Source of the DNA: Sedimenticola sp.
GTDB taxonomy: Bacteria; Pseudomonadota; Gammaproteobacteria; Chromatiales; Chromatiaceae
NCBI GenBank assembly: GCA_027083925.1
Contig: JALWMK010000070.1
Span: forward strand, 1 to 54,446
Direction: 5' to 3'
DNA length: 54,446 nucleotides
The position numbers and the translations under genes are program-made. Positions 23,968 to 45,160 of this stretch are shown piece by piece; position 1 is the first letter of the stretch, and each line of letters begins with the position of its first letter. The notes beneath the pieces are model-generated. The model had not been told where the DNA came from. It did not search any database and was given only the letters and a program-made list of their open reading frames with translations.

Positions 23968-24651
23968 ATGGACTTATCCAGCATTCGAAAGTTCAATCGT
24001 CTCCCTAAACGGGAGATTTTTCTTCTTGCCATCGTTGCGGGGTTGTCAGTATCAGTTACTGCTCATGCGGGAATCGTGGGGAGCGCTCACGATTTCAGCG
24101 TATTTGGCTGGTCGAACGGCGAGATATGTACGGTCTGTCATACGCCCCATAATGCGATCGGTGCTGAAAGCGCCCCGCTCTGGGGGCATACGCTCTCTAC
24201 GGCAACCTATCAGGTCTATCAAAGTGTGTATTCCGCCCCCAGAGATACGATTTATGCGCAGGGGGTGATTCATTCCCCCGGGCCGGAATCAATCGTGTGC
24301 CTGTCCTGTCATGACGGCACTATTGCCGTGGATTCGTTCGGCGGCAATGTTGGGAGTTCCTATATTTCCGGGGCGAAACTGATCGGTACCGATTTGAGAG
24401 ATGACCATCCCATCGGGGTAGAGTGGTCTCATCAGGTTGTATGGAAAAATACAACAGCAAACTGCACCAAATGCCATATTGACATTCCGATGCCGTTCGA
24501 CAAAATGCCGTTGCCATTTTTTAAAGGCACTGGCGTGGCGCGCATGGAATGTTCTACCTGCCATGATCCTCACAATGGCGATTCCAATGAAATGCTGCTG
24601 AGAAAAACCAATGCAGGCTCCGGTTTGTGCCTGCACTGTCACGACCAATAA
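23968..24651 (+). CDS. Exported pentahaem c-type cytochrome (doubled CXXCH type)
   Basis: A 227-residue protein with a signal peptide ending near TAHAG and five CXXCH motifs: CTVCH, CLSCH, CTKCH, CSTCH, CLHCH. The end reads CHDPHNGDSNEMLLRKTNAG then LCLHCH, the 'doubled CXXCH' (PF09699) pattern. It is a paralogue of the tetrahaem protein at 43419 and of the N-terminal part of the dodecahaem protein at 37173, sharing HDF, EIC.VCHTPHN, CLSCHDGT.A and GTDL..DHP. It is alone on the plus strand; a TTG at 23950 is an alternative start. A periplasmic or surface electron carrier is inferred. Confidence 0.88.
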   Translation: MDLSSIRKFNRLPKREIFLLAIVAGLSVSVTAHAGIVGSAHDFSVFGWSNGEICTVCHTPHNAIGAESAPLWGHTLSTATYQVYQSVYSAPRDTIYAQGVIHSPGPESIVCLSCHDGTIAVDSFGGNVGSSYISGAKLIGTDLRDDHPIGVEWSHQVVWKNTTANCTKCHIDIPMPFDKMPLPFFKGTGVARMECSTCHDPHNGDSNEMLLRKTNAGSGLCLHCHDQ

Positions 24652-24658
24652 TAAATAA

Positions 24659-24678
24659 ACCCCTGTGTTGACAGGGGT
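24659..24678 (-). terminator. Intrinsic terminator between convergent genes
   Basis: ACCCCTGT-GTTG-ACAGGGGT gives an 8-bp stem. On the minus strand it is followed by TTTATTTATTATT, so it should end transcripts of the NrfJ-like gene. The T content on the plus side is poorer. Confidence 0.75.
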
Positions 24679-24704
24679 GATTTGTGGCGGGTGCTGAGAA
24701 ATAT

Positions 24705-25067
24705 CTACTCTTTGGCGACCTCGACGGTCTGGACAAAGAGTATGCGCGGGAATTCCCTTTTCAGCGTGTCACTGTAGAAGTTGTCCATGGAGACTCCCTG
24801 GCCATAGCGGATCTTGGCACCATCCGGCAATACCAGCTGCTGTGCGGCCAGCCAGATCTTCTGCTTTCCCTGTTGTACTTCAATATAAGTGTAGTGTTCT
24901 GTTTGTACCGTGCTGACAACAGTGCCCTCATTGACCAGATTCTTGTCGCCAGCATTTGCTGATGCATCAATGGCTTGTTGTATGGTCGGGTGCCCGTCGG
25001 GTAGTTTTTCTGCCATGGTTGGTGCGGAAAAAGCAAGCAGCAGGCTAAAGATGATGATCGTTTTCAT
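24705..25067 (-). CDS. Small periplasmic OB-fold-like protein, NrfJ-related family (copy 2)
   Basis: A 120-residue paralogue of the protein at 11653-12012. The start at 25067 has GGAG six bases upstream and begins a signal peptide (MKTIIIFSLLLAFSAPTMAE). Shared segments are LPDGHPTIQQAI, NEGTVVSTVQ, YTYIEVQQGKQKIWLA and a DTLKREFPRILFV-type end. It is the last minus-strand gene of the cytochrome block, ~230 bases after the octadecahaem gene, and is followed by a terminator. The family occurs beside c-type cytochrome genes elsewhere (hence the NrfJ name), but no function is established. Confidence 0.78.
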   Translation of the reverse strand: MKTIIIFSLLLAFSAPTMAEKLPDGHPTIQQAIDASANAGDKNLVNEGTVVSTVQTEHYTYIEVQQGKQKIWLAAQQLVLPDGAKIRYGQGVSMDNFYSDTLKREFPRILFVQTVEVAKE

Positions 25068-25300
25068 TGTCGGCTCCATCATTTTGATCATTTCGTGTAT
25101 TGCCCTGGAAAGCAAACGGGTTTGATTGCTCGTGCAGGGCGGTTTCAGGGTTAAAAATGCATGTAGTATCAGATGTTCATGGGGTCTTCTGCAAGGGTCG
25201 CCGCCATATCGTCGTTCGCCAGGGTTAACAAGCAAGAAATAACAATGAATGATGGACTCCGCTCACCATTGCCGGACCGGTCAGGAATCAGCTGATGATA

Positions 25301-27661
25301 CTACTCCTTATATAGAAAGTAATCTTTCCTGGAAGTTCGGCCATGGAAGTATTTGTAGCGAAAAATTCCGTCTGCACCGTGGCAGTCTGCGCATACGATA
25401 TTTTCGCTGGAAGCATTGCGCAGGAAGCTGTTGGTCGCATCGCCTTCAATATTGGTTCCTTTTCCTTCCTTTGGTTTGCCGGGATCCCAGATATGGGGGT
25501 TGTGGCAACTGGCGCAGGCGATGGTTCCGGCGATGGTTCTGTCTCCCCGATGGTTGAACACGGGTATAGCGGGAAGATGGCGGCGCGCTGAAGCGGGTGC
25601 ACGGGCAGTATTTGACCAGACAACTACCTGAGGGGGGTGGCTGAGCCGTTCCGGAGCTTTGTTTTCTGCACTGCCGCCTGGTTTGTGGCAGCCAAGGCAA
25701 AGCCCTTCCTGTCTATTCCCGGGTTCTATTTTTCGCCCCCAGAGTGCGGGGCCGGACAGGGCATTGTGAATGCTATGGCACTGGCCGCAGATGCCGGACT
25801 GTTTTACCGTCTGATCCTTATTGTTCTTTGCCGTGGCAGCAGTTACATTTAGATCGTGATCTGTGCCGCGTACAAAGCGCTTGTTGCGGTGGCAGTCCAC
25901 GCACAAGGATGAATTTGGCGCAGCTGGTTTGCGCAGGAAGCTGGTTGTCGCATCACCTTCCGCTTTCGGCTCTGCGCCAGCGGTAGAGTATGGTTTCCCG
26001 GGATCCCATTGATGAGGGTCGTGACAGGTGGCGCAATCGATCTTGCCCTTGGTGTGGCGCTTTCCTGATTTGTCGAACAGTGGCAGCCTGGTTTTTCCTG
26101 CAACATTTTTCAGGCTGCGCTGCAAGGGGTGGCTGTGTTTGCCGGTCAGTTTCTTTTCCGCCACGCCGCCTTCCACATGGCAGGTGCTGCAGAGTGATTG
26201 TATTGCGCCTTCGCCTTTGCGCTTGCGGACAGGCATCATCACGGTGCCCCGGCCGTTATGCGCCCGGTGGCAAGATCCACAGGCACCCTGATCCAGATTT
26301 TTCTGCACCATGGGGTCTTTTTGCAGTTTTTTCTTTTTGGACTCTTTTAACTTGTGTTTCGATCGTAAAAGAGTTCGTTTGTCCACATGGCAATTGATGC
26401 ACAAGGCGCTGTTGGTGCCTTGTGCGATACGTAAGAAGCTGGATTGTCCATCTCCCTCTTCCTTGAATTGGTTTTTGTTTTTCTGCTTTTTGTTGCGGGT
26501 GCTCCAGACGTGGGGATCATGGCAGGTCAGGCACGCCACCCTGGTGCCGTCTTCAGATTGCTGTCCATGTTCATCCAGCAAGGGCAGGGATTTGAGTGCC
26601 CCTTTCTTTGCTCCAGGGCTGCTCCAGCCATCCTTGCCCGGCTTGATGCCCAGCTCGGTGATGGATACGTCAAGAGGGTGGCTGTGATTTCCTACCAGTT
26701 TTTTCTTGGCCAGCCCGTCCTTGTTGTGGCAGCTTTTGCATACGCCAGAGATCCTGTCATTCTTGTCGATGGCCTTGCCACCCCACAAAGGCGCTGCCGG
26801 ATCCGCGTCATGCAGTACATGGCAGCCAAGGCAGGTGCCATATTCAGAGACTTTTTCACCCTTGCTGTTTTTTGCTTCAGGGGCAATCAGGCCGTAATCG
26901 TGCTTGGTTCCCACAATTTGTGCCTTGTCTGCATGACAGTTGCTGCATAGCCATGCCTTGCGGTTGTCCACTACCATCAGTGGTTTGCTGCGTGCAGCAT
27001 GTGGTGTGTGGCAGGTCTGGCAGATGATTTCCTGTTTCTTGCCGAATATGCCGCCCACGGCCGCGAGTCTTTCCGGGATCTCATCCAGCACTTCCAGCAC
27101 TGGATGATTGATGCCTTTTTTCTTTTCCGCATACCGCTCATGGCAGGCCATACACATACTGGACTCTACGTTGGGAATCCGAAGAAATATGGCGGATTCC
27201 TGTTGTTTCCATGACAAGCCATGGGCGCTGTGGCAGGTGCCGCAATAGACTTTTCCTTCGTCATTAAGTGGAAAAACAGTTTTCCCCTCTTTTTTGGGCA
27301 GAACAACCTTGTCTGACGGCTCTATCCCTACCGGATGATTATGCCGCCCCTCAAGCCACAGTGGTCTTGAATCGAGGGCAAAGCCGTCGTGGCAGGAAAA
27401 GCACATCCGTTCCGTGCTGACGACATCCTGCTTTCCGCTTTTTTGCATGGGCCGGGGGTCGTAGGGAACCAGGGTGGCTACATCATCTTTTTTAAAATCG
27501 GACATCCATGCGATATGACAGGTTGCGCATTCCCGTTTTTCGGCAACAACACGCGCAGCTTCGGCCGCGCCTGCCAGGGAAACGAGCAGGATTACCGCAA
27601 GCAGCTGCCGCTGCCAGTTACCGGCAAAGGCGCCCCCAGGCTGTATGTGCGGAAAATCCAT
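25301..27661 (-). CDS. Octadecahaem c-type cytochrome, doubled-CXXCH repeats
   Basis: A 786-residue protein with a signal peptide (to ~AEA-ARV) and 18 CXXCH motifs: CATCH, CFSCH, CGTCH, CMACH, CQTCH, CSNCH, CLGCH, CKSCH, CLTCH, CINCH, CGSCH, CSTCH, CATCH, CVDCH, CGQCH, CLGCH, CASCH, CADCH. An internal repeat recurs about four times: a CH..H pair, an SHP segment with a likely distal haem ligand, a '.LP.F.' turn, CATCHDPH.WDPGKP, EGD..SFLR and LC..CH. Linkers are lysine-rich. No C-terminal anchor is seen, so it is probably soluble or surface-held. The NHL gene ends eight bases upstream, so the two are likely co-transcribed. The start at 27661 is uncertain (27679 TTG possible). Confidence 0.9.
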   Translation of the reverse strand: MDFPHIQPGGAFAGNWQRQLLAVILLVSLAGAAEAARVVAEKRECATCHIAWMSDFKKDDVATLVPYDPRPMQKSGKQDVVSTERMCFSCHDGFALDSRPLWLEGRHNHPVGIEPSDKVVLPKKEGKTVFPLNDEGKVYCGTCHSAHGLSWKQQESAIFLRIPNVESSMCMACHERYAEKKKGINHPVLEVLDEIPERLAAVGGIFGKKQEIICQTCHTPHAARSKPLMVVDNRKAWLCSNCHADKAQIVGTKHDYGLIAPEAKNSKGEKVSEYGTCLGCHVLHDADPAAPLWGGKAIDKNDRISGVCKSCHNKDGLAKKKLVGNHSHPLDVSITELGIKPGKDGWSSPGAKKGALKSLPLLDEHGQQSEDGTRVACLTCHDPHVWSTRNKKQKNKNQFKEEGDGQSSFLRIAQGTNSALCINCHVDKRTLLRSKHKLKESKKKKLQKDPMVQKNLDQGACGSCHRAHNGRGTVMMPVRKRKGEGAIQSLCSTCHVEGGVAEKKLTGKHSHPLQRSLKNVAGKTRLPLFDKSGKRHTKGKIDCATCHDPHQWDPGKPYSTAGAEPKAEGDATTSFLRKPAAPNSSLCVDCHRNKRFVRGTDHDLNVTAATAKNNKDQTVKQSGICGQCHSIHNALSGPALWGRKIEPGNRQEGLCLGCHKPGGSAENKAPERLSHPPQVVVWSNTARAPASARRHLPAIPVFNHRGDRTIAGTIACASCHNPHIWDPGKPKEGKGTNIEGDATNSFLRNASSENIVCADCHGADGIFRYKYFHGRTSRKDYFLYKE

Positions 27662-27668
27662 TAGGCCA

Positions 27669-28688
27669 TCACCGCTCAAGCCACAGAACGCTCACGCGAT
27701 TGGCGAGCATTTCCGAGACGTACAGCCGTCTCTTGCCGTCAGTGGCCAGACCTGTGGGCGTGTCAAAGTAGCCGATATCCCCCTTGTTTCCCAGAACCGC
27801 ATGAAAGCGGGTATCGGAATTGAAAGCCTGGACGACCCCAAGATAGCTGTCGCTGACGAAGATCATGCCATCTTTTCGGATGGTGACTCCCTTCGGGCGG
27901 AACAGCTTTCCCGGCGTTATGCCCCAAGAGCCGACTGTTGCCAGTATTTTTCCGGAAAAGTCGAATACCTGGACTCTTGAATTAAAAACGTCCACCACAT
28001 ATACGTCATCGTGTGTCCCAACCGCTATTGCTGCGGGGTAGCGGAAATCTCCAAGATTGCTTCCGGGCTTGCCCCAAACCAGATCGGATCTGCCCTTGTT
28101 GTTATACACGAATACCCGGTGTATGGGGGCGCTGATGGTGACATAGAGATGTTTTTCGTCATCACCCAGAACGACATCCACAGGAGAAACATACTGCTTT
28201 CCTACGCGTGTAGTAATGGATTTGAGAAAATTTCCATTGGCATCAAATACCTGTATCCGGTGGTTGCCTCTGTCCGCCACCAGCACGCTGCCATCCGATG
28301 CAGTGGTAATACCAACGGGAGCAAGTAGCTGGCCTTCCCCTTCCCCTGGAGAGCCAAACGCGAAAAGATAGGTACCGTCTTCCGCAAAAACCAGAATGCG
28401 GTTGTTGCCGCTGTCCACAACATACACCTGACCCTTGACGCCTATGGCGACATCGGTTGGCATGACCATGGGGTGATCAGGCGGGCCGGTAAGCTCTTGA
28501 ATCTTTTTGAAGCCCATCAGCGACTTGGGCTTTGCGGGTGCGATCCCTGGAATCAGCTGGGGCAGCCGGGGGTTTTCCAGGGTCTTTTCCGGCACACCAA
28601 AGCCTTCAGGCGCTACCGGAAGCTCCTCGGATGCTGCAACAGAAAAGGCGGGAAAGATCAGCAACAAAAAGATCTTTTCCCACCGCAT
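27669..28688 (-). CDS. Exported NHL-repeat beta-propeller protein
   Basis: About 339 residues with a signal peptide (MRWEKIFLLLIFPAFSVAAS) and six NHL repeats of the type 'G..VA..G.VYVVDSGNNRI.VF...G'. Examples are YVVDSGNNRILVF, LVADRGNHRIQVF, YVVDVFNSRVQVF and FVSDSYLGVVQAF. Propellers of this kind bind proteins or small ligands and have no redox group. It precedes the octadecahaem cytochrome and repeats the NHL-next-to-cytochrome pairing seen at 38912 and 41966. It may scaffold or cap the cytochrome. The start at 28688 is chosen for the signal peptide; no strong ribosome-binding site is seen, and 28727 is possible. Confidence 0.85.
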   Translation of the reverse strand: MRWEKIFLLLIFPAFSVAASEELPVAPEGFGVPEKTLENPRLPQLIPGIAPAKPKSLMGFKKIQELTGPPDHPMVMPTDVAIGVKGQVYVVDSGNNRILVFAEDGTYLFAFGSPGEGEGQLLAPVGITTASDGSVLVADRGNHRIQVFDANGNFLKSITTRVGKQYVSPVDVVLGDDEKHLYVTISAPIHRVFVYNNKGRSDLVWGKPGSNLGDFRYPAAIAVGTHDDVYVVDVFNSRVQVFDFSGKILATVGSWGITPGKLFRPKGVTIRKDGMIFVSDSYLGVVQAFNSDTRFHAVLGNKGDIGYFDTPTGLATDGKRRLYVSEMLANRVSVLWLER

Positions 28689-28914
28689 CAACCATTCATT
28701 CACGGCGTCCAGATTCCAAAGTAGCATTCAACCAATGTGTATATCAATAGAATAAATACTATCACACTAGCACTGGATAATCCCTACCCGGAATCTTCCG
28801 CAAGAGGTTCTTTGTTCAGGACGCTCCCGGCAATCCTGCCTGCATGGATTTGCGCCTGAGCGAATCAGAAAGCAATGATGATCGCAGCACATGGCGCACT
28901 ATTTTGTGCTCATA

Positions 28915-29877
28915 TCAGTCTGGGGTGGTGCTATCCCTCAGGAATTCAACGGAGGGTTTCTTTGCGCGGGATTTTTCTTCCGGCTTCACATGATCAAAAC
29001 CGCCGCCTCTGAGAAACTCAGGAATATAAAAATCCTGGTATTTCTTTATCATTCCGACTACTTCCGTGCTGGTCAGCTCGTGAAGACGGCGTTTGGGATA
29101 GCCCACTTCGAGAAAGGGGATGTAAGGCTTTTTCTTGGCCGTGTGGCAGCCTTCGCACAGTAGCGGCTCTTCGTTTACGTTCCTGTGCAAGACATTTTTC
29201 ATCTTCGACTTTTGGGTGTCGTTCAGGCGCTCCTCTTCCTGCAGGTATTTATTGACGAATGCCAGTTCTTTGGGGCCGTTCAGGAAACGGAATTGGCCGT
29301 TACTGTCGATTTTGCCAGGCCCGAGTTTGGCCGAATAGTTCCCATACATGGCCTCTTTCAGGGTGTTCAGCCCCGGGGGAGGAGAAATCACTTCCCCGGT
29401 TTCCTTGTCGTACCACTTGAATATCCAGGGGCCTTCTCCTGCTGCTTCAGGGCGTACATGGCAGGTTTCGCAAGCCAAATAGAAGGCATGCATATTGAGA
29501 AATGCACGAATGGTTTTCGCCCGGTCATGGGGAACAGCACCATGGCAGCGCATGCAGACGCTGTTACTGTCTGGCTCGACTTTCATGCCGACATGGTGGA
29601 AATGCCCTTGTACATACTGTTCTTCGATAACCATGTATCCCAAGTCCGTGGTGGCGGTCTGTTGCTGCTCCTTCAGTGATTTCAGAAAGGCCTTTTCCTC
29701 GTCAGTGGTTCCTTCCCCGTAAAAGGCCGCCAGATCCTGGCCTGCGTCCGCGGCATTTTTGTTTTCGTCCCCATGTCCGAAAATTACCGGGTAGAGGAAG
29801 AAGCCATACCAGACGGTGAACGCCATCAGGGCGAGGATGTAAAGGGTGCGGATAAATTTCTTCAGTGCTTTTAACAC
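28915..29877 (-). CDS. Membrane-anchored trihaem c-type cytochrome (module 1)
   Basis: One N-terminal membrane anchor (~LYILALMAFTVWYGFFLYPVI) and three CXXCH motifs, CMRCH, CETCH and CEGCH, in the periplasmic part. A GTG at 29877 has AGGTGG five bases upstream; a TTG at 29898 overlapping the cytochrome b stop is the alternative. It is homologous to the trihaem protein of module 2 (33225): both have H....D..VC..CHG..PH, LLNMH.....C.TCH, a KR.LHELT-type segment and a conserved FY.PE end. With the b cytochrome and octahaem c upstream it likely forms one quinone:cytochrome c oxidoreductase complex in the inner membrane. Confidence 0.85.
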   Translation of the reverse strand: MLKALKKFIRTLYILALMAFTVWYGFFLYPVIFGHGDENKNAADAGQDLAAFYGEGTTDEEKAFLKSLKEQQQTATTDLGYMVIEEQYVQGHFHHVGMKVEPDSNSVCMRCHGAVPHDRAKTIRAFLNMHAFYLACETCHVRPEAAGEGPWIFKWYDKETGEVISPPPGLNTLKEAMYGNYSAKLGPGKIDSNGQFRFLNGPKELAFVNKYLQEEERLNDTQKSKMKNVLHRNVNEEPLLCEGCHTAKKKPYIPFLEVGYPKRRLHELTSTEVVGMIKKYQDFYIPEFLRGGGFDHVKPEEKSRAKKPSVEFLRDSTTPD

Positions 29878-29894
29878 ATTAGCCACCTTGCTGC

Positions 29895-30689
29895 TCAATG
29901 ATGTTGGGGCTTGATTTCATGTTCCAGGCCTTCTTCTTTCATGGTTTGTAAATATTCATCATAGTGTTCGTGGATCATGTCTGCTTCGGGCAGATATCCC
30001 GTCAGAAATACAGTGCCAAGGGGAAATTTCTCAGGCGCATAGTGGACGTTGTACCAGTGAACGAAGAACAGGAAGAGGGCAGCGAGAAGCGCCTCATCCG
30101 TGTGCATGATGTAGAAGGCGTTCAATACGATGCCGGGTAAAAAATGGCTGACTTCATCGCGATACCATAGCGCCAGACCGGCCGGGCCAAGGATGGGGAT
30201 ACCCCAATAGGGAGCGAAATAGTCAAATTTCTCCTTCCAGGAAATGCGGTCGTAGCGTGGTGGGCGGTTGGTGAAATAGAGCAGGTACTTAAACATGTTA
30301 ACCATGTCCCTGCCATCCTTGCCATTAGGGATCATTTCCTGGGAGAGAAATTCCTTGACCAGGTTGCCTGCGGTAACACGTTTTTCCCGGATCAGTTTTC
30401 CCACCCTGTTTTTGAAAAACAGGTAGATCCAGTATCCGGTGTGGAACAGAAATAGCGCCAGCAGGATCAGTCCGGTGATCCTGTGGATGTAGGGGGCTAC
30501 TTCGATGCCGCCAAAAAATTCGTACAGCGGCTTGGCCCAGGGCTGATCATAATAGCGTAACGGAAACCCGGTGAGAGCCAAGGTGATCACCGTAGTGAAC
30601 AGAATGATGTGCTGCACTCTCTGAACCAGAGAAAACCGGAAGAAATAGCGCTTACCATTTCGAATGGCGATCTTGGGATATTTTTGCAT
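29895..30689 (-). CDS. FdnI/HydC-type b cytochrome (module 1)
   Basis: A 264-residue protein with four membrane helices of the cytochrome b561-like family (HydC/FdnI), which passes electrons between haem b and quinone. Likely haem-ligand histidines are in helix 1 (RVQHIILFTT), helix 2 (YIHRITGLILLALFLFHTGYW) and helix 4 (HTDEALLAALFLFFVHWYNVHY). This matches the pattern of the module 2 protein at 34534. The trihaem gene starts within a few bases of its stop, and the octahaem gene lies 15 bases upstream. Direction of electron flow cannot be read from the sequence. Confidence 0.88.
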   Translation of the reverse strand: MQKYPKIAIRNGKRYFFRFSLVQRVQHIILFTTVITLALTGFPLRYYDQPWAKPLYEFFGGIEVAPYIHRITGLILLALFLFHTGYWIYLFFKNRVGKLIREKRVTAGNLVKEFLSQEMIPNGKDGRDMVNMFKYLLYFTNRPPRYDRISWKEKFDYFAPYWGIPILGPAGLALWYRDEVSHFLPGIVLNAFYIMHTDEALLAALFLFFVHWYNVHYAPEKFPLGTVFLTGYLPEADMIHEHYDEYLQTMKEEGLEHEIKPQHH

Positions 30690-30704
30690 GATAGTAGACT
30701 TCTG

Positions 30705-31847: not shown

Positions 31848-32175
31848 CTTTCAAGGTTCTCCGAGCAGCTTGTGAATGTCCAGGAATGAATGTTGCTCCT
31901 GCAAGGCCGGTAAAGACGCCAACAAGTCATAATCCCCCTCTATCACGAAAGCTGAATTTCAATAAAATGGCTAATGCATAGCCCAAAAAAATCCTTCAGC
32001 AGTAGATGCATCGCTGCCGAACTCCTCTCCAACGTATCGTCTTTACGAGGGCCTGATGGAACCCTTCTTGTTATTTCAGAAGTCTCTGGTCTGCCATGAA
32101 CTGGTATCTTGCGTTCAGGCTTAATGAGGGCTTCCTGAATGGCCGACAATAAAAAAATCGGTAAAAATTATACGG
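31848..32175. other. Intergenic stretch without recognised features
   Basis: 328 bases between the module 1 octahaem gene and the peptidase-like gene. A 68-codon minus-strand frame (31943-32149) has no signal, motif or ribosome-binding site that would support it. I see no repeat of the two element families here. Confidence 0.5.
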
Positions 32176-34530: not shown

Positions 34531-34533
34531 GGC

Positions 34534-36703: not shown

Positions 36704-36961
36704 CTTAAACTCCCCTGACAAAGCCAATCGTCACCAAAGTCGATTGCTATGACGAAATTGTTATTATTCTATGTAGGTATGGCCTTTATAATTGTTGGGA
36801 ATGTGGCCGATTGCTGCTAACAATTGTGCTGATGAGCATAGCAAGATAGCTAATCGGAGACAAGTTTTCTTGCGGGCGTCCGATGTTCAGGATTCACGGG
36901 CAAACCCTGGAGCAGGACTCGGCCTCCCCGAACGCGCAAAATATTCAGGGCATCTTCTCCT

Positions 36962-37091
36962 GCGCAAGCGCAAGCGCTGGATTCCCCAGCGGTTCAAAAA
37001 ATGCCCGCTTAACCTGAGGCGAGGGTGAAGCTGAGATTTCTTGATTTTACGGGAAAATCAATAGCATACGCTCTGAACCCGCAGATTCAGG
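36962..37091. mobile_element. Family 2 element, left end degenerate
   Basis: It shares the block CCAGCGGTTCAAAAAATGCC and CGCTTAACCTGA with the copies at 12344 and 50695. It also shares the right part ..GGGAAAATCAATAGCATACG and the end TGAACCCGCAGATTCAGG. The left inverted end is not recognisable. The rest of 36704-37172 contains no gene I can support. Confidence 0.65.
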
Positions 37092-37172
37092 CTGCAGTTA
37101 TCATGGCAATTGGAGCAGTAACCTGCATACGATGCATTCCGCCCGGGAACCGATGGTTTTTCATTCAAATAC

Positions 37173-38915
37173 TCAAGGCCCCATGCAGCCCATGCCGCCA
37201 CCGCCACCACCGCCATAGGTACATGGGTTATGGTTTTTACCGTGGCAGCTCAAATAACAGCTGCCCTCAAAAGTGCCGGTTGATTGGTAGTAGAGCAGGC
37301 CATCGCTGTTTGGTTGTACGACATCCAGATCGAAGTTGATCAGTTTTGTTCCACTGTGCAGCCCTGATGGGCGCACTCCATGGGGATCGTGGCATACATT
37401 GCAGGGCGTGTTCAAACTGCCACCGCCACCGCCACCACCCATGCCGGAGATATGGCGTCTGTGCTTGGAGAAGCTTTGGTCGCCCAGGATGCTGCTGCGG
37501 TCGTGGCATTTGTAGCAAAGCGCATAGGCGGATGCTGATTCCGGGTTGGGGTCTGTGGTGATGTACTGGCGTTGCAATATTGGCTGATAGTTGGATCCAT
37601 GCGGCCCCCTGGACGTCGAATCAGGTCCGGGAAAGGGTTCATCGTTGTCGTGGCAATCGGTGCATTTCATTGTGCTGCCGGTGCTCCACGGGGAGATCAG
37701 ACTGGGAACATTCGGGTTTGCCCCCGGGGCGGCTATGGGGTGGTAGGAGGGATTGGAGGTGGAGAAATCCAGGCGCACATTGGGTTCCGGAATCAGCCGG
37801 TTGGTTCTCACCTCGGCGGAGGGCTGGGTGTCGCCGTGACAACGGAAGCACAGCTGGTACTCGGCAGTAATCGGGTCCACCTCTGCACCGCCGATGGTGA
37901 TTCCCCTTACGTTCCGCAATGTTCCCATTCCGGCAGCGATCGGCCATACGGCGTGTGAGTTGTGGCAGTCTTGGCATTCGACGTGGCGGTCGCTGACCAA
38001 TACATTTTCCGTAGGATCGTGGACGCCGGTAGTAAGATTCAGGGGGTGTGCGGATATCTTGCTCAGGGCGGTGTCGATGTTGCTTCGCGCCACATGCCCG
38101 TTGTGACAGTCCAGGCAGACCTGCTCTTCTGCGGCATGCTTCAACAGCCTTTCTCCGCCAGCCTGGTGGGGGGTGTGGCAGCTATAGCAAGCGTTGGCAT
38201 TTACTGTGGTCCATTCCGTATAGGGCCAGGGGTCTGGCCCTATACCATCCCAGCTTTTCCCGGTTATCTGGTGCGAGGTGATGTCGTGGTAGGCAGTATG
38301 GCAGGTCTCACATAACGCCCCATATCCATCCCCCTTGACCAGAAATTTGCCATTGCTGTTATCGTGGGGGTCATGGCAACTCGTGCACTGTACCTGACCG
38401 GAGGCATCCAGCTTGACCGCTCCGGTCAGGGTAGAGGGGGATTTCAGCCTGCCATCTGCAGTGGCCAGCGCTTCGGTGTACTCAAATGAGACAGGATGGT
38501 CATCAGACAGATCCGTTCCCAGTTTGCTTCTGCCTTCGGGCATCGTCGTCACTCCACCAGCCATGGCAACCGGGGTGTCCCTGCTGATCAGGTCTCCCAG
38601 GGCGATGGTGCCGTCATGGCAGCTCAGGCAGAGCAGCGAGGCGCCGGTAGGTTGCCCGGGTGCGGCATCGCTGGTGCTGCTGCTGTATGGGGTATAGTTT
38701 TGCCCTGCATCCTGACGGTTCCAGAGGGGGACTTGGGGTGAGGCGTTGTGCGGTGTATGGCAAAATATGCAAATCTCGGACTCGCTGGTGGCTTTGATGC
38801 TGCCGGTACCAGAAGCAGACAAATTGTGCTTGGTGGTCTCTATGCCTCCTGACAGCAATTCCATATACAGCACAGACAGGGTAAAGAGCAGGATTGAGAT
38901 GGCTGTTTTATTCAT
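37173..38915 (-). CDS. Dodecahaem c-type cytochrome with glycine-rich C-terminus
   Basis: A 580-residue protein with an N-terminal signal or anchor and 11 CXXCH motifs (CIFCH, CLSCH, CTSCH, CETCH, CYSCH, CLDCH, CQDCH, CFRCH, CTDCH, CYKCH, CNVCH) plus CYLSCH (C-x3-CH). The first ~200 residues are homologous to the tetrahaem protein at 43419. Two runs of seven glycines occur, at MGGGGGGGS and in the C-terminal YGGGGGGGMGCMGP. The start overlaps the stop of the NHL lipoprotein gene by four bases. It is the best candidate for the haem wire that works with the barrel at 39955. Confidence 0.9.
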   Translation of the reverse strand: MNKTAISILLFTLSVLYMELLSGGIETTKHNLSASGTGSIKATSESEICIFCHTPHNASPQVPLWNRQDAGQNYTPYSSSTSDAAPGQPTGASLLCLSCHDGTIALGDLISRDTPVAMAGGVTTMPEGRSKLGTDLSDDHPVSFEYTEALATADGRLKSPSTLTGAVKLDASGQVQCTSCHDPHDNSNGKFLVKGDGYGALCETCHTAYHDITSHQITGKSWDGIGPDPWPYTEWTTVNANACYSCHTPHQAGGERLLKHAAEEQVCLDCHNGHVARSNIDTALSKISAHPLNLTTGVHDPTENVLVSDRHVECQDCHNSHAVWPIAAGMGTLRNVRGITIGGAEVDPITAEYQLCFRCHGDTQPSAEVRTNRLIPEPNVRLDFSTSNPSYHPIAAPGANPNVPSLISPWSTGSTMKCTDCHDNDEPFPGPDSTSRGPHGSNYQPILQRQYITTDPNPESASAYALCYKCHDRSSILGDQSFSKHRRHISGMGGGGGGGSLNTPCNVCHDPHGVRPSGLHSGTKLINFDLDVVQPNSDGLLYYQSTGTFEGSCYLSCHGKNHNPCTYGGGGGGGMGCMGP

Positions 38916-39955
38916 CTTTCGTCCCCAAGATAGCGAAAAACCTGCACACGGTTGTTAAAGGAGTCCGCAACGAAAATGCGGTTTTTGTCATCGATAAAAA
39001 TGCCGGTTGGCAGCCAAAACTGCCCCGGCCCATGTCCTTGTTCACCTATGTAGAGTAGCAATTCTCCTGCAGGATTGAAAATTTGCATGGAATTGTGCAG
39101 AGAATCCAGCACATACAGGTTTCCATGGCGGTCTGTTGCAATGCCTTTGGGCCTGGGCAAATCACCGGTCGCGTCTCCAGGGCGGCCGAAGGCGGAAATG
39201 AAACGGCCGTTTTCATCAAACTGCTGGATACGGAAATTGAGTGAGTCCGTAACCCAGAGGCGGCGAGTGGACGGGTCGTTCCAGATCATCGTCGGGAAGT
39301 TGAATTCTCCCGTCCCCGCTCCCCGCTTGCCAAACTGGTAGAGCAGCTGTCCTTCCAGATCAAATACCAGTATTTCATGCCGGAGAGTATTGACAACGTA
39401 CAGCCGCTCTCCATCCACGGCCAGCCCGGTGGGCTGGTCGAGTGCAATGCTGGTCTGCAAAGGAATGGCATACTGATCATCGCCGGATATCAAAAAAATC
39501 TGGTTTAAGCCGGAGTCCGAGACATAGACCCGGTTTCCCGGCCCGATAGCCAGAGCAATCGGGGAGCGAAAAGCTGCCCCGTTTTTCGGGCGTATAATAT
39601 CGTGTTCCTTACGCCGGGTATTGAAGCGGTATACCGCTCTGGAGCCAGGGTCGGCAACATACAGAACCTCATCCGCTGTCATTACCGCAGCAGTGGGACG
39701 GATCAGGCGGCTTTCCTTGCTTCCGGCAAGCCAGCCTGCCAGTTTGTGCCACAACCCGGGCTTGATTCCAAGGTCTGCTGGGATGGAAATTTGCCGAACA
39801 TACTCTAGCCTTGCCATTGCAGGTGGTTTCGGCCAGGTTATGCGCTGCTGACTTTTCTGCACGCCAGAATTTGGGCTGCCCGCGCAGGATGAAAGCAGCA
39901 GCCCCGCCGCCAACAAAGCTACTGCTCCGGCAAGCCTTCGGGCAAGGCTGGCCAT
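38912..39955 (-). CDS. NHL-repeat lipoprotein (downstream of barrel)
   Basis: A 347-residue protein with a lipoprotein signal ending LLSSCAG, then ~six NHL blades. Examples are YVADPGSRAVYRF, YVSDSGLNQIFLI, WVTDSLNFRIQQF, YVLDSLHNSMQIF and FVADSFNNRVQVF. Its start overlaps the barrel stop by one base (TGATG) and its stop overlaps the dodecahaem start by four. The three are thus translated as a unit, strong evidence that they work together. A propeller tethered to the outer membrane beside a barrel and a cytochrome is inferred. Confidence 0.9.
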   Translation of the reverse strand: MASLARRLAGAVALLAAGLLLSSCAGSPNSGVQKSQQRITWPKPPAMARLEYVRQISIPADLGIKPGLWHKLAGWLAGSKESRLIRPTAAVMTADEVLYVADPGSRAVYRFNTRRKEHDIIRPKNGAAFRSPIALAIGPGNRVYVSDSGLNQIFLISGDDQYAIPLQTSIALDQPTGLAVDGERLYVVNTLRHEILVFDLEGQLLYQFGKRGAGTGEFNFPTMIWNDPSTRRLWVTDSLNFRIQQFDENGRFISAFGRPGDATGDLPRPKGIATDRHGNLYVLDSLHNSMQIFNPAGELLLYIGEQGHGPGQFWLPTGIFIDDKNRIFVADSFNNRVQVFRYLGDER

Positions 39956-41949
39956 CAGAAACGCCTTGAAATGGAGATATCGAACCGGGTTCTTTCTCTG
40001 TCGGAATCGCCGATGGAATTACTGTTGTAACGAGCGTTGGCGGTTACTTTCAGCTGGCGGATTTTCCAGTCAAAACGAAGGGAGGCGCTGGTATTGGATC
40101 GCAATTTGGTTCCTCCGGTATCTTCTTCATCGATGACATTGATGCTCATGGTGCTTCTGCGCCACGGCGATGCGTTATAACGTATTCCCCAGCGGGTCAA
40201 ATCAGTATCTTCGGGCGAGCCGTCCCTGTCAACCAGTTCCCTGTCGGCAAAAATGCGCAGACGCCCGTTTAATGGCGTGGGCATTTGCACATAGAGACCG
40301 TATTGGGTGCTGTCATAGGGGATGATTTCATCTTCGTAGCGCTCCAGTTCGCTGCGGCCTCCAAAGGACCATTCATCCCAGAAGGGAAGGTCAAAGTTGA
40401 GGCCAACTTTCGTGCTCTTGCTGGAATTTAAGGGCAGGGTGGGATTGCCTTCGTCCAGGGATCTTTCTACATTATGGTATTGTGCGAAAGCTCTGATGTG
40501 CTGCCCCCTGTTGAGATCGATCCGATAGCGCTGGTTTATGCCGTTGAATACGGCAGTTCCGCCAGTTTCATATGAATAATCCACCTGTACTTCTTCTCCG
40601 TCAGTGATATTTCCCGTGGGGATTCGCTGAATGCTGGTGGCGTCTCCAGAGACGATCAGGCGGTAATCGATGCTCTCTACATAAACCTGTGTGGAGGACA
40701 GGTTAGTTATTTTTACGCTTCCGGTGACAACGTAGCTGCGTGACAGGGTGGAGGGCGTGGTGTTGTTTAAAATATGATGTTCGGCAAAAATCTGGGCCTG
40801 GTCAGAGGCTGCCTGGCGATCCGTTCGATCCACCGTCCAGCCCGTGCTGTAACGTATGTTGAACAGGCTGAACTCCTGCAGATAAGACAGGGACAGGCTG
40901 CCGCTGAGGTAGTCCTGGTTATATGCTTCCGCCTGGTAGTTTTGCGCTTTGGCGGCCGCACTGACATGCAGGCGTTTGTCAAAAGGATAGTAGCTCACGC
41001 CAAGATTTAGTTGATTCGATTGGGAGTCTGTTTGTTCTGCGGTCCAATCGCGGAAAGTGTAGCGATAATAGGAAGTCAGGTTATCGGCATGGGTCCAGTT
41101 GATGCTGGGCCGGTACGAGATCTCTTCCAGTGTGGGCCGGCTGTCTTGCTTCTTATAGGTGAAGAAATTGTTGAACAGAATCTGCCCGTTTTCTCCAAAA
41201 GTATGCTCTGCCTGTATATCCAAGGTGTTTGTTGTTCTTGACGTTGGCGCAATGGGTAGTTCGTAGCTTCCGCTGCTGGATTGTTCCTTAAGCCAGTAAT
41301 ACCCGATACTTCCGTCTCCATTAGAACCCAGGTCAATGGATAGCACGACAGATGCCTGATCGCTCGCTTCGTCAACTTTGCGCTGTATGCTGCTGCCATC
41401 CGTCTGCTGTGAACTCATGCGAATATCCAGCAGCGGCGCCATTACAAAAGGGTTTTTTAGGGAAAAATCAATTCCATATCTGCTTCTTTCCAGTAGCATC
41501 CTGTCTTGGGTTGCTGCTGAACTGCTACTGAAGTTTCGATCGTAGTATAAGGTAAACGGGTAGTTTTTCTCTTTGAGGATATTTGCCTTGGCGTGGAAAT
41601 TGAAAAATTGTTCATTGGTGGAATGGGTAACCAAATCAGAATCATAACTATTTTGCAAAAAAACCGGGCCACCCCCAAAATCCAGTAGGACAAGATTGGG
41701 ATGGTAGATATAGCTGTGAATCAGAATATCCAGTTCTTCCTGGAAGGTATTACCGGTGCGGTAGCTGTTGTTTTTGTTATCGGCGTTATCAGTAGCAATG
41801 TACTCGTCAAAAAAATAGGCTAACGTCAATTCTGTTTCAATGCCGGTGATACGGAAAGGGGTGATTTCCACTGATCTGGTGCTGGTCGAGAGGAAAATCA
41901 GCGCCCCTGTACTTGCTAGCAATAGCGTATTGAACTTTAGTCTCAGCAT
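39955..41949 (-). CDS. Outer-membrane beta-barrel, putative porin of a cytochrome conduit
   Basis: A 664-residue protein with a signal peptide (1-~27) and a body of alternating hydrophobic and polar residues with many aromatic strand ends, such as NYPFTLYYDRNFSSSS, LTSYYRYTFRDW and QYGLYVQMPTPL. It ends in the C-terminal phenylalanine typical of BAM substrates. Size fits ~22-28 strands, as in MtrB/PioB-type conduit barrels, but I see no cysteine and no CXXC near the N-terminus, so it is not a plain MtrB. It lies 16 bases after one NHL lipoprotein gene and overlaps the next by one base. Role as a sheath for a multihaem cytochrome is inferred from position. Confidence 0.85.
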   Translation of the reverse strand: MLRLKFNTLLLASTGALIFLSTSTRSVEITPFRITGIETELTLAYFFDEYIATDNADNKNNSYRTGNTFQEELDILIHSYIYHPNLVLLDFGGGPVFLQNSYDSDLVTHSTNEQFFNFHAKANILKEKNYPFTLYYDRNFSSSSAATQDRMLLERSRYGIDFSLKNPFVMAPLLDIRMSSQQTDGSSIQRKVDEASDQASVVLSIDLGSNGDGSIGYYWLKEQSSSGSYELPIAPTSRTTNTLDIQAEHTFGENGQILFNNFFTYKKQDSRPTLEEISYRPSINWTHADNLTSYYRYTFRDWTAEQTDSQSNQLNLGVSYYPFDKRLHVSAAAKAQNYQAEAYNQDYLSGSLSLSYLQEFSLFNIRYSTGWTVDRTDRQAASDQAQIFAEHHILNNTTPSTLSRSYVVTGSVKITNLSSTQVYVESIDYRLIVSGDATSIQRIPTGNITDGEEVQVDYSYETGGTAVFNGINQRYRIDLNRGQHIRAFAQYHNVERSLDEGNPTLPLNSSKSTKVGLNFDLPFWDEWSFGGRSELERYEDEIIPYDSTQYGLYVQMPTPLNGRLRIFADRELVDRDGSPEDTDLTRWGIRYNASPWRRSTMSINVIDEEDTGGTKLRSNTSASLRFDWKIRQLKVTANARYNSNSIGDSDRERTRFDISISRRF

Positions 41950-41965
41950 GTGATTTCAGCTGCGT

Positions 41966-43057
41966 TCACTGATAATCCATGTCCTGCATTTTGCCGAAAC
42001 CATACACGTTTACCTTGTTAGGCCCAAATTGATTACTGACAAGAATCACATACTCCAGTTGGAAACCCGGTGCCGCATATGGCTGGAAATAGGCCACGTT
42101 TTCATAGTCAATGGATATATCGGTTGGCAGGTAGAGCTGGCCGGGGCCGATTCCCGGTTCAGCGAAAAACAACAAAAGCATCCCCTCAGAATTAAAAACT
42201 TGGACATTTTGAAAGGCTGCGTCTACTACATAGGTGTGTCTATCCCTGTCTACAGCGATGCCCTTGGGGCGGGCGAAATTTCCCAGCGAGGTGCCAACCT
42301 CACCCAGCTTGCGGATAAAGCGGCCTTCGGGGGAAAACACCTCTACTCGGAAATTTGCGCTATCGCTCACATACAGGTTGCCATCCGGACCCACGGCGAT
42401 ATTGGTGGGGTAAACAAATTTTCCTTCGTCAGATCCGGCGGTGCCGATGGTATAGAGGAATTCCCCGGAAACTTTATCCAAAACCCTGACTTGGTGATTC
42501 TTCAGGTCTGTTACAAACAGTTTATTGCCGAGGATGGCAATGCCGCTTGGTTTCATTTCTCCGGTTTGGCCAAAAGCCTTGATTCTGTTGTTCCCTTGAT
42601 CAAATACCAGCACTTGTTTGAGGATGGTGTCTGTGATGTATTTGTTGCCTTCGGCATCGATGGCGATATTGATTGGTTTTTTCAGACCCCCAACGGTATG
42701 GAAAGTATCGTTCTTAAGATCGAATATCGCGTATCCACCGCTGCTGCTATCGACTACATACAACTTACCGTCGAACAACGTTACCCCATAGGGCTTTTTT
42801 AGCATTTGCTCCTCAATGCTCTCTTTTCCCAAGACAAAAGCGGCAAGCCCCGATTTTTCCTTCTTTTTCAAGTCCTTGGCGCCAGAGAAAGAGGTAAGGA
42901 ACTGAATGCGTGGTGGGTTGGGCAGCGGTGGGTAGAAAACCGCTCCGGTTTCCTTTTTCTCCTCTTGGGGTTTGGGTGGCGTAGCGCAACCCGCAAGTAT
43001 TAGGATGGCAAGAAAAACAGCAAAAAAAGTGTATGGATTAAGTTTTCTATTATTCAT
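41966..43057 (-). CDS. NHL-repeat lipoprotein (upstream of barrel)
   Basis: A 363-residue protein with a lipoprotein signal (LAILILAGCAT), a lysine-rich linker and NHL blades such as KYITDTILKQVLVF, LFVTDLKNHQVRVL, YVSDSANFRVEVF and YVVDAAFQNVQVF. It is about the same length as, and clearly paralogous to, the protein at 38912; both contain 'RPKGIAVD/TD' and 'GPGQ.(W/Y)LPT' segments. It is the first gene of the barrel-cytochrome operon. No redox centre is present; an adaptor role is inferred. Confidence 0.9.
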   Translation of the reverse strand: MNNRKLNPYTFFAVFLAILILAGCATPPKPQEEKKETGAVFYPPLPNPPRIQFLTSFSGAKDLKKKEKSGLAAFVLGKESIEEQMLKKPYGVTLFDGKLYVVDSSSGGYAIFDLKNDTFHTVGGLKKPINIAIDAEGNKYITDTILKQVLVFDQGNNRIKAFGQTGEMKPSGIAILGNKLFVTDLKNHQVRVLDKVSGEFLYTIGTAGSDEGKFVYPTNIAVGPDGNLYVSDSANFRVEVFSPEGRFIRKLGEVGTSLGNFARPKGIAVDRDRHTYVVDAAFQNVQVFNSEGMLLLFFAEPGIGPGQLYLPTDISIDYENVAYFQPYAAPGFQLEYVILVSNQFGPNKVNVYGFGKMQDMDYQ

Positions 43058-43357
43058 GTGGGTATATTATAAAGCCTGCTGATAGCGCTATTCTGCTCTT
43101 TCCGGAGCTGGAAAAAAGAATCAAAATAAAACCACGGTCTGGCATAGAAGCTTTATTTTGGAATTCTCATTCCATTCTCTTGCATGAGGGAAAATTCAGA
43201 TAGCTAAAAACACCGAGTTAGGCCAGGCTGTTCTTGGATTTATTATTAACGGTCTCGCTTCCTTAAAATGTGTCTAAAGGAGGCGGAAGATGCCTGGCTT
43301 ACAGCAAGGTGTTGCCGCGAAAACCTTGAAAGGGAAATTGGTAAGAATCTCAGTACT

Positions 43358-43394
43358 CCGCCTCCAGTCAGGTTGGTTATCTGGCTGGAGGCGG
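43358..43394. other. 10-bp hairpin in the intergenic region 43058-43418
   Basis: CCGCCTCCAG (43358-43367) and CTGGAGGCGG (43385-43394) are a perfect inverted repeat with a 17-base loop, ~25 bases beyond the end of the tetrahaem gene. No T run follows on either strand, so factor-independent termination is doubtful. The rest of this 361-base region contains no gene I can support. Confidence 0.5.
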
Positions 43395-43418
43395 CTGCCT
43401 GGTATGTTTACTACCGCA

Positions 43419-44099
43419 TTACTTATTATGGCAAGCCAAGCAAATCTGGCTTCCCAGTCTGTTGACTCTCAGTAGCTTGTTCGTGGTTGCCGGGCCTTGG
43501 GTGAACCCATTATGCACATCGTGACAGCTTGCGCATTGCAGTTTGCCAGATAGCAGCATGACGTCATCAATGGTGCCGGTCTTTTGCTTGTCGCCTTCGC
43601 CAATCGTAATCGTTTTGGTTGTTGGGTCAAACAAGCCGGGGTCGGCTGTAGCCAGTGCGGCATCATAAGTGAAAGAGATGGGGTGGTCATTTGACAGGTC
43701 TGTGCCAAGATTGGATCTGCCTGTAAGGGTAAATCCACCGCCAGCGGCACCCCCATATGAATCAACTGCCACTGTGCCATCGTGGCAAGAGAGACACAAA
43801 ACCGAGCTGCCATCTGGCTGCCCTATGGTGCCAGCGCCGTCAAAGCTTGGGCTGGTGTAGGTTGTGAAGGTAGATGTGGTTACCTCATGGTTCCACAAAG
43901 GGGCATCGGGAATGGTTGATGAGTTATGCGGAGTGTGGCATACGATACAGATTTCGTTTGATGAGTTCCAAGCTTGGGCTGCAAAATCATGTTTTGAGCC
44001 AATAATTGTGCCGGCTGTTGCTGAGGTTGCAAAAGCCAGTCCTGCTGCGATCAGGCTTCCAGCGAGTATACTTTGAACACGCCCTTTGGTATTAGCCAT
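43419..44099 (-). CDS. Exported tetrahaem c-type cytochrome (doubled CXXCH type)
   Basis: The start at 44099 has AGGAGG seven bases upstream. The 226-residue protein has a signal peptide ending ATSATAG and four motifs: CIVCH, CLSCH, CASCH, CLACH. The layout HDF....EICIVCHTPHN, PLWNHE, CLSCHDGTVAVDS, GTDLSNDHPISF, CASCHDVHNG..LL....ICLACH recurs in the pentahaem protein (23968). It recurs also in the first 200 residues of the dodecahaem protein (37173). It is monocistronic by spacing. A soluble periplasmic shuttle is a likely role. Confidence 0.9.
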   Translation of the reverse strand: MANTKGRVQSILAGSLIAAGLAFATSATAGTIIGSKHDFAAQAWNSSNEICIVCHTPHNSSTIPDAPLWNHEVTTSTFTTYTSPSFDGAGTIGQPDGSSVLCLSCHDGTVAVDSYGGAAGGGFTLTGRSNLGTDLSNDHPISFTYDAALATADPGLFDPTTKTITIGEGDKQKTGTIDDVMLLSGKLQCASCHDVHNGFTQGPATTNKLLRVNRLGSQICLACHNK

Positions 44100-44413
44100 G
44101 GTAAATCCTCCTGTTACGGTTTCCCACATTATCTTAAGAGTCTTCTTAACTGCCGCTCTATAGTAATGTATAGATATATGGATGCACATGAATAAATTTA
44201 CTTCATATGCCTGACATGAAAAATAGACAAAAAACCGTCACAAGTCAAGCAATTTGTTCGGCTGCGGCGCCAATAAAGCGCCTGGAGTGCCAGCAAGCTG
44301 ACGAGTGGGGCTTTCAGGCCGATGAACGGGGACTCTGCATGTGGTTTCAGCGGATCAGCGGAGTTGTCGGGCCGTTCTTTCAGGAATCGAAAAGCTTTGG
44401 CGACGATTTTTCA
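44100..44413. other. Intergenic region upstream of the tetrahaem cytochrome
   Basis: 314 bases without a supported gene. The part next to the cytochrome is AT-rich (43-60% by eye) and probably carries its promoter, but no box pair stands out enough to name. Confidence 0.4.
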
Positions 44414-45160
44414 TCATAGCTGAAATGGCAGGTAAATGTAGTTCAAATCGTGTTTGTGTGTGCCTATTGCCTTTCTGTCTTCGAAATCGAACTGGTAGCC
44501 GGAACCGACGAAGGGGCTTGCCGGGTTATGGCACTGTGTTGCACAGACATTGTTTTCCGGGGATGGCATGGTCAGCCCGCCCTTGGTTTGGTATTCCTCT
44601 AGGGTGTATGTCCCTTGTTTTTTCAGCATCATTTCTGCATAGATGCTGCCGGGGCCGTGGCAGGCTTCGCACTGGATATTGGCCATTTCCGGGGTCTGTT
44701 CCATGCTGATAAAGCCGCCTGGCTGACCAAAGCCGGTAACATGGCATCTTACGCACTCGCGGTTATTGGTATAATCTTGTTCCGGATCCAGCCCCGCCTT
44801 GCGTTTTGCTTCGGTTCTTGTTCCCGGCTTCAGCAGTTCGAAGGCTTTGGACATCTTGGTATCTGCCCAGGATTCGAAATGAGGCAAGTGGCATAGTTTG
44901 CAGTTGTCGATACCGACGTATTCCCGGCGCTCGTTGAAGCTGACTCCTTCTTCCGCCACGGGCAGATCCAGCACAAATTGACCGTCGATCACGGTTATTC
45001 CGGTTCTTGCTTCTGCGATGGTAATGGTTGCTGGTTTCTCTTTCGCAGCAGGGTATTCGGCACGGGAAGTTTCCGGAAGTTTTGAGGCGGTTCCGGCAGT
45101 GAATGCGAAACCCGAAAGAGCAGCAGCTAGCAAAGCTGCCGGTGTTGGATGTTTTCCCAT
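44414..45160 (-). CDS. Cytochrome c554-like tetrahaem protein
   Basis: A 248-residue exported protein with CKLCH, CVRCH, CEACH and CATQCH (C-x3-CH). The arrangement YVGIDNCKLCHLPHFESWADTKMSKAFELL matches the cytochrome c554 family: first haem, then a helix with 'W..TKM.KAF..L'. So does the later VRCHVTGFGQPGGF, NIQCEACHGPGS. The family shuttles electrons (from hydroxylamine oxidoreductase in nitrifiers) and occurs in many other lineages. No hydroxylamine oxidoreductase gene is in the window, so the partner here is unknown; the neighbouring cytochromes are likely. Confidence 0.85.
   Translation of the reverse strand: MGKHPTPAALLAAALSGFAFTAGTASKLPETSRAEYPAAKEKPATITIAEARTGITVIDGQFVLDLPVAEEGVSFNERREYVGIDNCKLCHLPHFESWADTKMSKAFELLKPGTRTEAKRKAGLDPEQDYTNNRECVRCHVTGFGQPGGFISMEQTPEMANIQCEACHGPGSIYAEMMLKKQGTYTLEEYQTKGGLTMPSPENNVCATQCHNPASPFVGSGYQFDFEDRKAIGTHKHDLNYIYLPFQL

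Follow-up and report, generated by a model that had tools for sequence, protein, structure and literature searches.

A candidate Uet-type electron-transfer block with OmcE-like cytochromes and its own inner-membrane modules in Sedimenticola

The undecahaem electron transfer (Uet) pathway has been described from Candidatus Tenderia and other Tenderiales and from Gallionella, that is, from cathode- and iron-oxidising lineages (PMC10734462), and Tenderia is described with one undecahaem and three trihaem cytochromes (PMC5371394). A second relevant system is the OmcE filament, whose structure is 7TFS and whose rise is 34 A (PMC12954529), and in which haem 2 receives a histidine ligand from the neighbouring subunit (PMC12203936); nanowire anchoring and electron entry were stated to be unresolved in a 2025 review (PMC12307469). 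Here we describe a block of multihaem cytochrome genes at positions 23950-45160 of a Sedimenticola sp. contig (JALWMK010000070.1, C70). The whole contig, 54,446 bases of a 2.58-Mb assembly (176 contigs, 98.81% complete), is referred to as the window. Judged from sequence, the block probably encodes a system of the Uet type for extracellular electron transfer that has an inner-membrane end of its own, a quinone-to-outside route that would finish in an OmcE-type filament.

OmcE-like proteins and gene content of the block

An earlier note on the window had reported the cytochromes of this block and had missed that its tetrahaem protein E_4h, its pentahaem protein A_5h, and the first 200 residues of its 12-haem protein D_12h are homologues of OmcE. 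In phmmer searches, E_4h matched PDB entry 7tfs with an E value of 5.6e-30 over residues 43-256, which is its mature length; A_5h matched at 3.7e-19 (residues 25-232) and residues 6-207 of D_12h at 1.9e-35. All three also matched another chain in the PDB, 9yuq_N ("putative multiheme cytochrome c"). When the D_12h model was superposed on 7tfs, 154 residues aligned with a Z score of 8.4 and a root mean square deviation (rmsd) of 3.1, and OmcE was the sole significant structural match. This model is middling (pLDDT 73.2), and the C-terminal half of D_12h was therefore left uninterpreted.

The haem ligands of OmcE are conserved in these proteins. Across 71 OmcE-like rows, including the window's three, the only cysteine or histidine columns kept in at least 90% belong to four CXXCH motifs and four further histidines, each of them retained in at least 69 of the 71. 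OmcE itself has all four extra histidines in its alignment with E_4h. These residues therefore provide ligands enough for four bis-histidine haems. Because D_12h keeps all four CXXCH motifs and all four histidines, we tentatively propose, with appreciable doubt, that this UetJ-like protein serves as base for an OmcE-type nanowire, with its OmcE-like domain as the first filament interface and its eight-haem remainder docking in or on the barrel. Separately, G010, another genome from this genus, carries two tandem copies of the OmcE-like gene (contig L006, 2561-4371).

The nine multihaem cytochrome open frames between 23950 and 45160 carry 60 CXXCH, four CX3CH, and one CX4CH motifs. With the longer motifs included, the counts along the window are 5, 18, 3, 8, 3, 8, 12, 4, and 4, as the earlier note had them in arriving at about 65 sites. 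The two b cytochromes (both above the PF01292 cut-off), three NHL propellers, and single barrel that it listed are likewise present, and its peptidase-like gene is signal peptidase I. Its outline of the block needs adjustment: the nine cytochromes do form one block, which starts at 23950 rather than 23968, has its pentahaem gene on the other strand, and probably has the C554-like cytochrome as a neighbour. Six-frame translation of the block contained 67 CXXCH motifs, whereas 20 single-base shuffles averaged 1.35 and never exceeded 4. All 36 motif residues of D_12h, those of its CX3CH included, are the same in each of 51 aligned sequences, and one octahaem-protein CX3CH is invariant in 12 of 12 (alignment A7), so the CX3CH motifs are not chance occurrences. 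Clustering of motifs by chance is ruled out by the shuffles and by the invariance of the odd motifs. The features are as follows.

23950..24651, plus strand: A_5h, pentahaem cytochrome, OmcE-like over its length (5 CXXCH; phmmer to 7tfs)
24705..25058, minus strand: OBF, small protein of unassigned function (signal-peptide-like start by inspection)
25301..27679, minus strand: B_18h, 18-haem doubled-CXXCH cytochrome, candidate periplasmic bridge (PF09699, E 6e-34)
27669..28727, minus strand: NHL1, NHL propeller without lipobox, overlapping B_18h (PF01436)
28915..29898, minus strand: T1, trihaem cytochrome, probably membrane-anchored (3 CXXCH; N-terminal hydrophobic segment)
29895..30689, minus strand: b1, cytochrome b of b561/FdnI type (PF01292, 36.8 bits; cut-off 30.1)
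30705..31847, minus strand: O1, octahaem cytochrome with C-terminal anchor (6 CXXCH, CX3CH, and CX4CH; hydrophobic segment 330-361)
32176..33039, minus strand: signal peptidase I (TIGR02227, 110 bits, cut-off 47; PF10502)
33225..34292, minus strand: T2, trihaem cytochrome, probably membrane-anchored (3 CXXCH; N-terminal hydrophobic segments)
34534..35487, minus strand: b2, cytochrome b (PF01292, 33.8 bits; cut-off 30.1)
35576..36727, minus strand: O2, octahaem cytochrome with C-terminal hydrophobic anchor (7 CXXCH and CX3CH)
36728..37172, minus strand: gap at the position of c8 in ten relatives (only a dispersed repeat recognised)
37173..38915, minus strand: D_12h, 12-haem cytochrome, UetJ-like, OmcE-like domain plus 8 haems (11 CXXCH and CX3CH; PF09699)
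38912..39955, minus strand: NHL2, NHL propeller lipoprotein, UetH/I-like (PF01436; lipobox LSSC at residue 21)
39955..41949, minus strand: outer-membrane beta-barrel, UetC-like (AlphaFold2 model; 29 strands of at least 9 residues)
41966..43057, minus strand: NHL3, NHL propeller lipoprotein, UetH/I-like (PF01436; lipobox LAGC at residue 21)
43419..44189, minus strand: E_4h, tetrahaem cytochrome, OmcE homologue, UetA-like (4 CXXCH; phmmer to 7tfs)
44414..45160, minus strand: C554-like tetrahaem cytochrome (PF13435, 87 bits; 1bvb, E 4.9e-27)

On the minus strand, the order of transcription is C554-like cytochrome, E_4h, NHL3, barrel, NHL2, D_12h, O2, b2, T2, signal peptidase I, O1, b1, T1, NHL1, B_18h, and the small protein, with A_5h convergent. 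Overlaps of a few bases join barrel and NHL2, NHL2 and D_12h, T1 and b1, and NHL1 and B_18h. Promoter-like sites (18, with 16.2 expected) and terminator-like sites (33, with 24.3 expected; standard deviation 5.9) occurred in about chance numbers.

Conservation of the outer half

A contig scan with D_12h gave 288 confirmed relatives, the best 80 of which were kept as loci, so the conservation counts describe the closer relatives of D_12h only. L009, a Sedimenticola metagenome-assembled genome whose 12-haem protein is 91% identical, is the closest named record with the same genes; it was dropped from the rows as identical to L006. None of the best 80 loci is named Tenderia. D_12h occurs with all four core families (OmcE-like protein, NHL3, barrel, and NHL2) in 43 of the 80, and many others are cut by contig ends. 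The 43 loci fall in Pseudomonadota, Verrucomicrobiota, Chlorobiota, Bacteroidota, Nitrospirota, Ignavibacteriota, Omnitrophota, Calditrichota, Hydrogenedentota, and KSB1. For 37 loci, the contig extends 9 kb or more to either side of the 12-haem gene; among these, an OmcE-like gene was found in 35, an adjacent NHL2 in 35, NHL3 in 34, the barrel (by BLAST) in 30, and, under a stricter test, all four families in 27. Six of the seven well-covered loci without a barrel match show a haem-free frame of 652 to 676 amino acids that has no BLAST match. The earlier note had made conservation of gene order the check on its own reading, and the genes do stay together in relatives.

The barrel was modelled with a mean pLDDT of 90.2. 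In Foldseek, MtrB ranked sixth by E value and had the highest TM-score (0.44) of the 50 chains listed. Superposition on MtrB (6r2q_B) gave a Z score of 14.6 and 451 aligned residues at an rmsd of 6.3, the lowest among the 50 rows listed; the longest alignment in those rows was to a type 9 translocon chain (488 residues, rmsd 13.0), with MtrB second. On this model the protein is taken as a wide conduit-type barrel, which is not proof of family.

The branch that holds the window differs from other rows next to the barrel. Of the 35 scorable rows that fall outside the window's branch, 34 have a 3-, 5-, or 9-haem gene between NHL3 and the barrel; none of the 15 scorable rows within that branch (19 proteobacterial rows) does. 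In ten gammaproteobacterial loci, including G178, G182, and G355 and not G101, an 8-haem gene, c8, follows D_12h. No remnant of c8 was detected in the window's 445-bp gap by six-frame reading or by tblastn with three c8 proteins at an E value of 10; a distant c8-like protein is encoded on another contig of the same genome, C43.

Inner-membrane modules and flanking genes

The two octahaem/cytochrome b/trihaem (O/b/T) modules of the inner half are paralogous in all three parts, with cross-matches of homologues at about 28 to 35% identity and 30% in the O1-O2 alignment. Seven histidines are invariant across 10 sequences of the b1/b2 family. A crude hydropathy scan placed a single segment of b1 and three segments of b2 above threshold, below the number expected for a cytochrome b. 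O2 matched the MtrC/MtrF domain II/IV model with 38.9 bits (cut-off, 30). At an E value of 0.01, neither the octahaem profile nor the 18-haem protein had a relative of solved structure; O1 gave nothing meaningful, and T1 matched only 1sp3 (E value, 0.08). Homologues of B_18h carry 18 to 24 haems and adjoin NHL1. The genome has two PF10502 matches, and the signal peptidase I of the block, which is the second copy, is possibly dedicated to the exported proteins of the block. Its position is shared by L015 and L018, both Candidatus Thiodiazotropha.

Core and O/b/T genes are linked in 11 gammaproteobacterial loci besides the window: L010 (also L134), L013, L015, L016 (also L130), L018, L019, G178, G182, G101, G355, and L011, which has only part of the module before its contig ends. 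In the D_12h tree, the rows labelled O/b/T fall within one gammaproteobacterial branch of 14 rows (SH-aLRT 84, short of the 95 mark). On this tree 3 changes account for the label, compared with an average of 10.5 in shuffles, none of 500 being as low; labels of L129, L131, L132, L133, L135, and the window were set by hand. The unlabelled rows of the branch are L011, which is cut after O2, L054, which has a 10-haem gene after D_12h and no octahaem gene in its remaining 3.8 kb, and L006, from G010. On another contig of G010, genes for NHL1 and B_18h (85 to 86% identity) precede those for three trihaem c7 proteins and a hexahaem protein, one of which exceeds the TIGR04257 cut-off. Comparison of G010 with the window therefore suggests that the outer half has two kinds of partner within one genus, one of them like the trihaem proteins of the described Uet.

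Among 369 genomes of the class, 13 had a 12-haem match at 1e-120 or better and 11 had an octahaem match at 1e-70 or better, all within those 13. Both cut-offs were chosen after the lists had been seen, and the Fisher test ignores kinship. In the other two genomes, G021 and G305, trihaem genes precede the barrel or a barrel-sized frame.

A second multihaem cluster lies at 7303-19728 of contig C43 (L128) of the same genome. It encodes an NHL::14-haem fusion, a T-like trihaem protein, a Fer4_5::octahaem-like fusion, a c8-like 6-haem protein, frames with 8, 7, and 8 haems, and a 432-amino-acid frame that has no Pfam hit and may be a small barrel. The first fusion ties NHL1 to B_18h, and the second pairs the octahaem protein with a donor or acceptor of electrons in the inner membrane. 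Where the C43 fusion carries its Fer4_5 membrane part, which we take to be NapH-like, the window has a separate cytochrome b.

The C554-like cytochrome, at the right end of the block, is probably a neighbour rather than a member of the unit: it also adjoins rdgC in G009, a close relative (94% identity) whose genome gave no barrel match. The barrel was found in 1 of 14 other genomes of the genus. In G009, the nearest of them, the contig with the C554-like gene stops 290 bp away from it, and matches to the left flank are all short, so absence of the island and missing assembly look alike. The small protein OBF matches neither Pfam nor NCBIfam. Its homologues amount to 11 frames across 82 loci examined; besides the window, ten loci with core genes carry them (L007, L008, L020, L022, L027, L028, L035, L041, L080, and L081). 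In G010 the gene occurs a second time, on the contig bearing the left flank. To the left of the island, genes for a TauE-type permease, a nitrite/sulfite-reductase-type protein, a PAPS-reductase-domain protein, and a LysR-type regulator adjoin each other at 15038-20225 and are perhaps a sulfur-assimilation block. Short dispersed intergenic repeats of about 120 to 145 bp lie at 36962-37082, 12367-12481, 50718-50996, and 23538-23682; the last has at least 6 near-full-length and about ten partial matches in G006 of the same genus (3 contigs).

Competing explanations and comparison with known systems

Under the favored explanation, a Uet-type system with its own inner-membrane end, complexes of b, octahaem, and trihaem cytochromes would exchange electrons with quinone, B_18h would bridge the periplasm, and electrons would cross the outer membrane within the barrel. 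Outside, E_4h would polymerise into an OmcE-type filament, which the NHL lipoproteins may help to assemble or hold, with D_12h in a putative adapter role. A complete route can be drawn, as the earlier note had claimed; for the carrier within the barrel, relatives have candidate cytochrome genes that the window's block lacks.

Several observations weigh against this explanation. OmcE homology is no proof of polymerisation, and filament formation is a prediction from homology. The Z score of MtrB is tied with those of ten porin and transporter rows (14.6 to 15.6; 244 to 401 aligned residues; rmsd, 9 to 15). The module is partly inverted or moved in 3 of the 11 linked loci (L019, G182, and G101), and in G010 the c7 trihaem genes occupy the T1-b1-O1 place on the contig that carries NHL1 and B_18h. 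Looser cut-offs weaken the co-occurrence: 17 of the 369 genomes then have the 12-haem match (1e-60) and 16 the octahaem match (1e-40), with 11 having both, 5 the octahaem match only, and 6 the 12-haem match only. The block has neither the small pre-barrel cytochrome typical of rows outside its branch nor the c8 of ten near relatives, and this gap in the haem chain through the barrel is the chief weakness of any full route.

Two RuBisCO large subunits, apparently one like form I and one like form II, are encoded in the genome together with a cbb3 oxidase and DsrB, and the host is therefore likely a Sedimenticola-like sulfur-oxidising autotroph. In such a host, electrons would more likely run mainly inward, reaching quinone from Fe(II), metal sulfide, an electrode, or a partner cell, and the parts could run either way. 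Export of quinol electrons to Fe(III) or Mn oxides, electrodes, or partner cells once oxygen and nitrate are spent is possible, although we think it somewhat improbable. OmcE and CbcBA run outward in Geobacter, where OmcE serves oxide reduction (PMC12307469); the two parallel inner modules of the block bring to mind the different quinol oxidases ImcH, CbcL, and CbcBA described there (PMC12307469), and undecahaem cytochromes are cited in Mn-reducing Dechloromonas (PMC13264449). The description of Uet from cathode- and iron-oxidising lineages (PMC10734462) and a genome with RuBisCO and a cbb3 oxidase point the other way, and neither excludes export.

The barrel and propellers could instead be Osc-like parts for assembly or secretion of a nanowire, carrying no electrons, with the filament reached otherwise. 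Within the osc operon of Geobacter, OscD is a propeller and OscH is an isomerase. Its proteins have been proposed to act in OmcS folding (OscH), secretion (OscEFG), and morphology (OscD) (PMC13194489), and no haem gene separates NHL3 from the barrel in the window or in the 14 further scorable rows of its branch. The rmsd and alignment length of the MtrB match, together with the near-constant haem gene at that position outside the branch, argue against this explanation, and we consider it unlikely. Very improbable, and already disfavoured, is a soluble pathway, such as a periplasmic sulfur or nitrogen reductase with outer-membrane genes as accidental neighbours. The T proteins are weakly similar, far below the cut-off, to an octahaem tetrathionate-reductase-family model, and the C554-like protein recalls ammonia oxidisers; however, the barrel is linked to the inner module in 11 further loci, and no catalytic reductase was recognised among the genes of the block.

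If the favored explanation is right, nanowire anchoring becomes testable outside Geobacter, in a conserved cluster that holds an OmcE-type subunit, a larger cytochrome with that domain, a wide barrel, and propeller lipoproteins. D_12h, if it is the base, would be the missing nanowire anchor and electron entry point, an old device common to about ten phyla, and the nanowire would here be wired to a dedicated quinone module. Probable sulfur-oxidising autotrophs and Candidatus Thiodiazotropha (L015 and L018), the latter taken to be clam symbionts, would then join the bacteria with nanowire-type electron exchange.

Uet, OmcE, and porin-cytochrome conduits are already known. As far as our searches showed, what is new is the explicit connection of the Uet-type tetrahaem and 12-haem cytochromes with OmcE, the doubling of the inner-membrane module, and the change of partner within one genus, some of which may already be in print. 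In the literature listings searched, no title joins Uet with OmcE, which does not exclude priority; OmcE and "undecaheme" stand together in PMC12203936, where the latter word refers to another protein.

With the MtrCAB and PCC3 porin-cytochrome conduits the block shares a large barrel and multihaem cytochromes, and O2 matches the MtrC/MtrF domain model noted above. Among the nine cytochromes, TIGR03508 and TIGR03507 (DmsE/MtrA and OmcA/MtrC) were matched, if at all, far below the cut-off, and unlike MtrCAB the block has NHL lipoproteins and an OmcE-like 12-haem protein. The earlier note is supported in its description of an envelope-spanning electron-transfer block unlike MtrCAB. The O and b proteins presumably resemble CbcBA of Geobacter, in which a b cytochrome adjoins a multihaem c cytochrome with a C-terminal anchor, whereas a trihaem protein is the usual third partner in the block; the 14 control genomes include no Geobacter. 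With the Osc operon, compared by description, the block would share secretion and morphology genes adjoining a nanowire cytochrome (PMC13194489), but OmcS, the cytochrome of the Geobacter system, is stated to have no sequence similarity to OmcE (PMC9473688). The alignment of E_4h with OmcE covers the mature length and takes in all four CXXCH motifs and the four further histidines, and the block adds a 5-haem relative and a fused 12-haem relative.

The likeness to Uet is one of gene content as described, rather than of Tenderia sequences, and covers an 11- to 12-haem doubled-CXXCH cytochrome (UetJ; 12 motifs and PF09699 in the block) and, in one cluster, an extracellular-type tetrahaem cytochrome (UetA), a barrel (UetC), and two NHL proteins (UetHI) (PMC10734462). 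The described Uet also has the c7 trihaem carriers UetDEG, which the block lacks (T1 and T2 score 24.0 and 20.4 bits; c7 cut-off, 24.8), and a peptidyl-prolyl isomerase, UetB, for which the 17 genes of the block gave no Pfam match at an E value of 0.001. The earlier note's statement that the whole matches no named system does not hold for the outer half, which is Uet-like by content (PMC10734462); the inner half differs from the Uet described there in its two octahaem/b/trihaem modules, its 18-haem cytochrome, and its third propeller.

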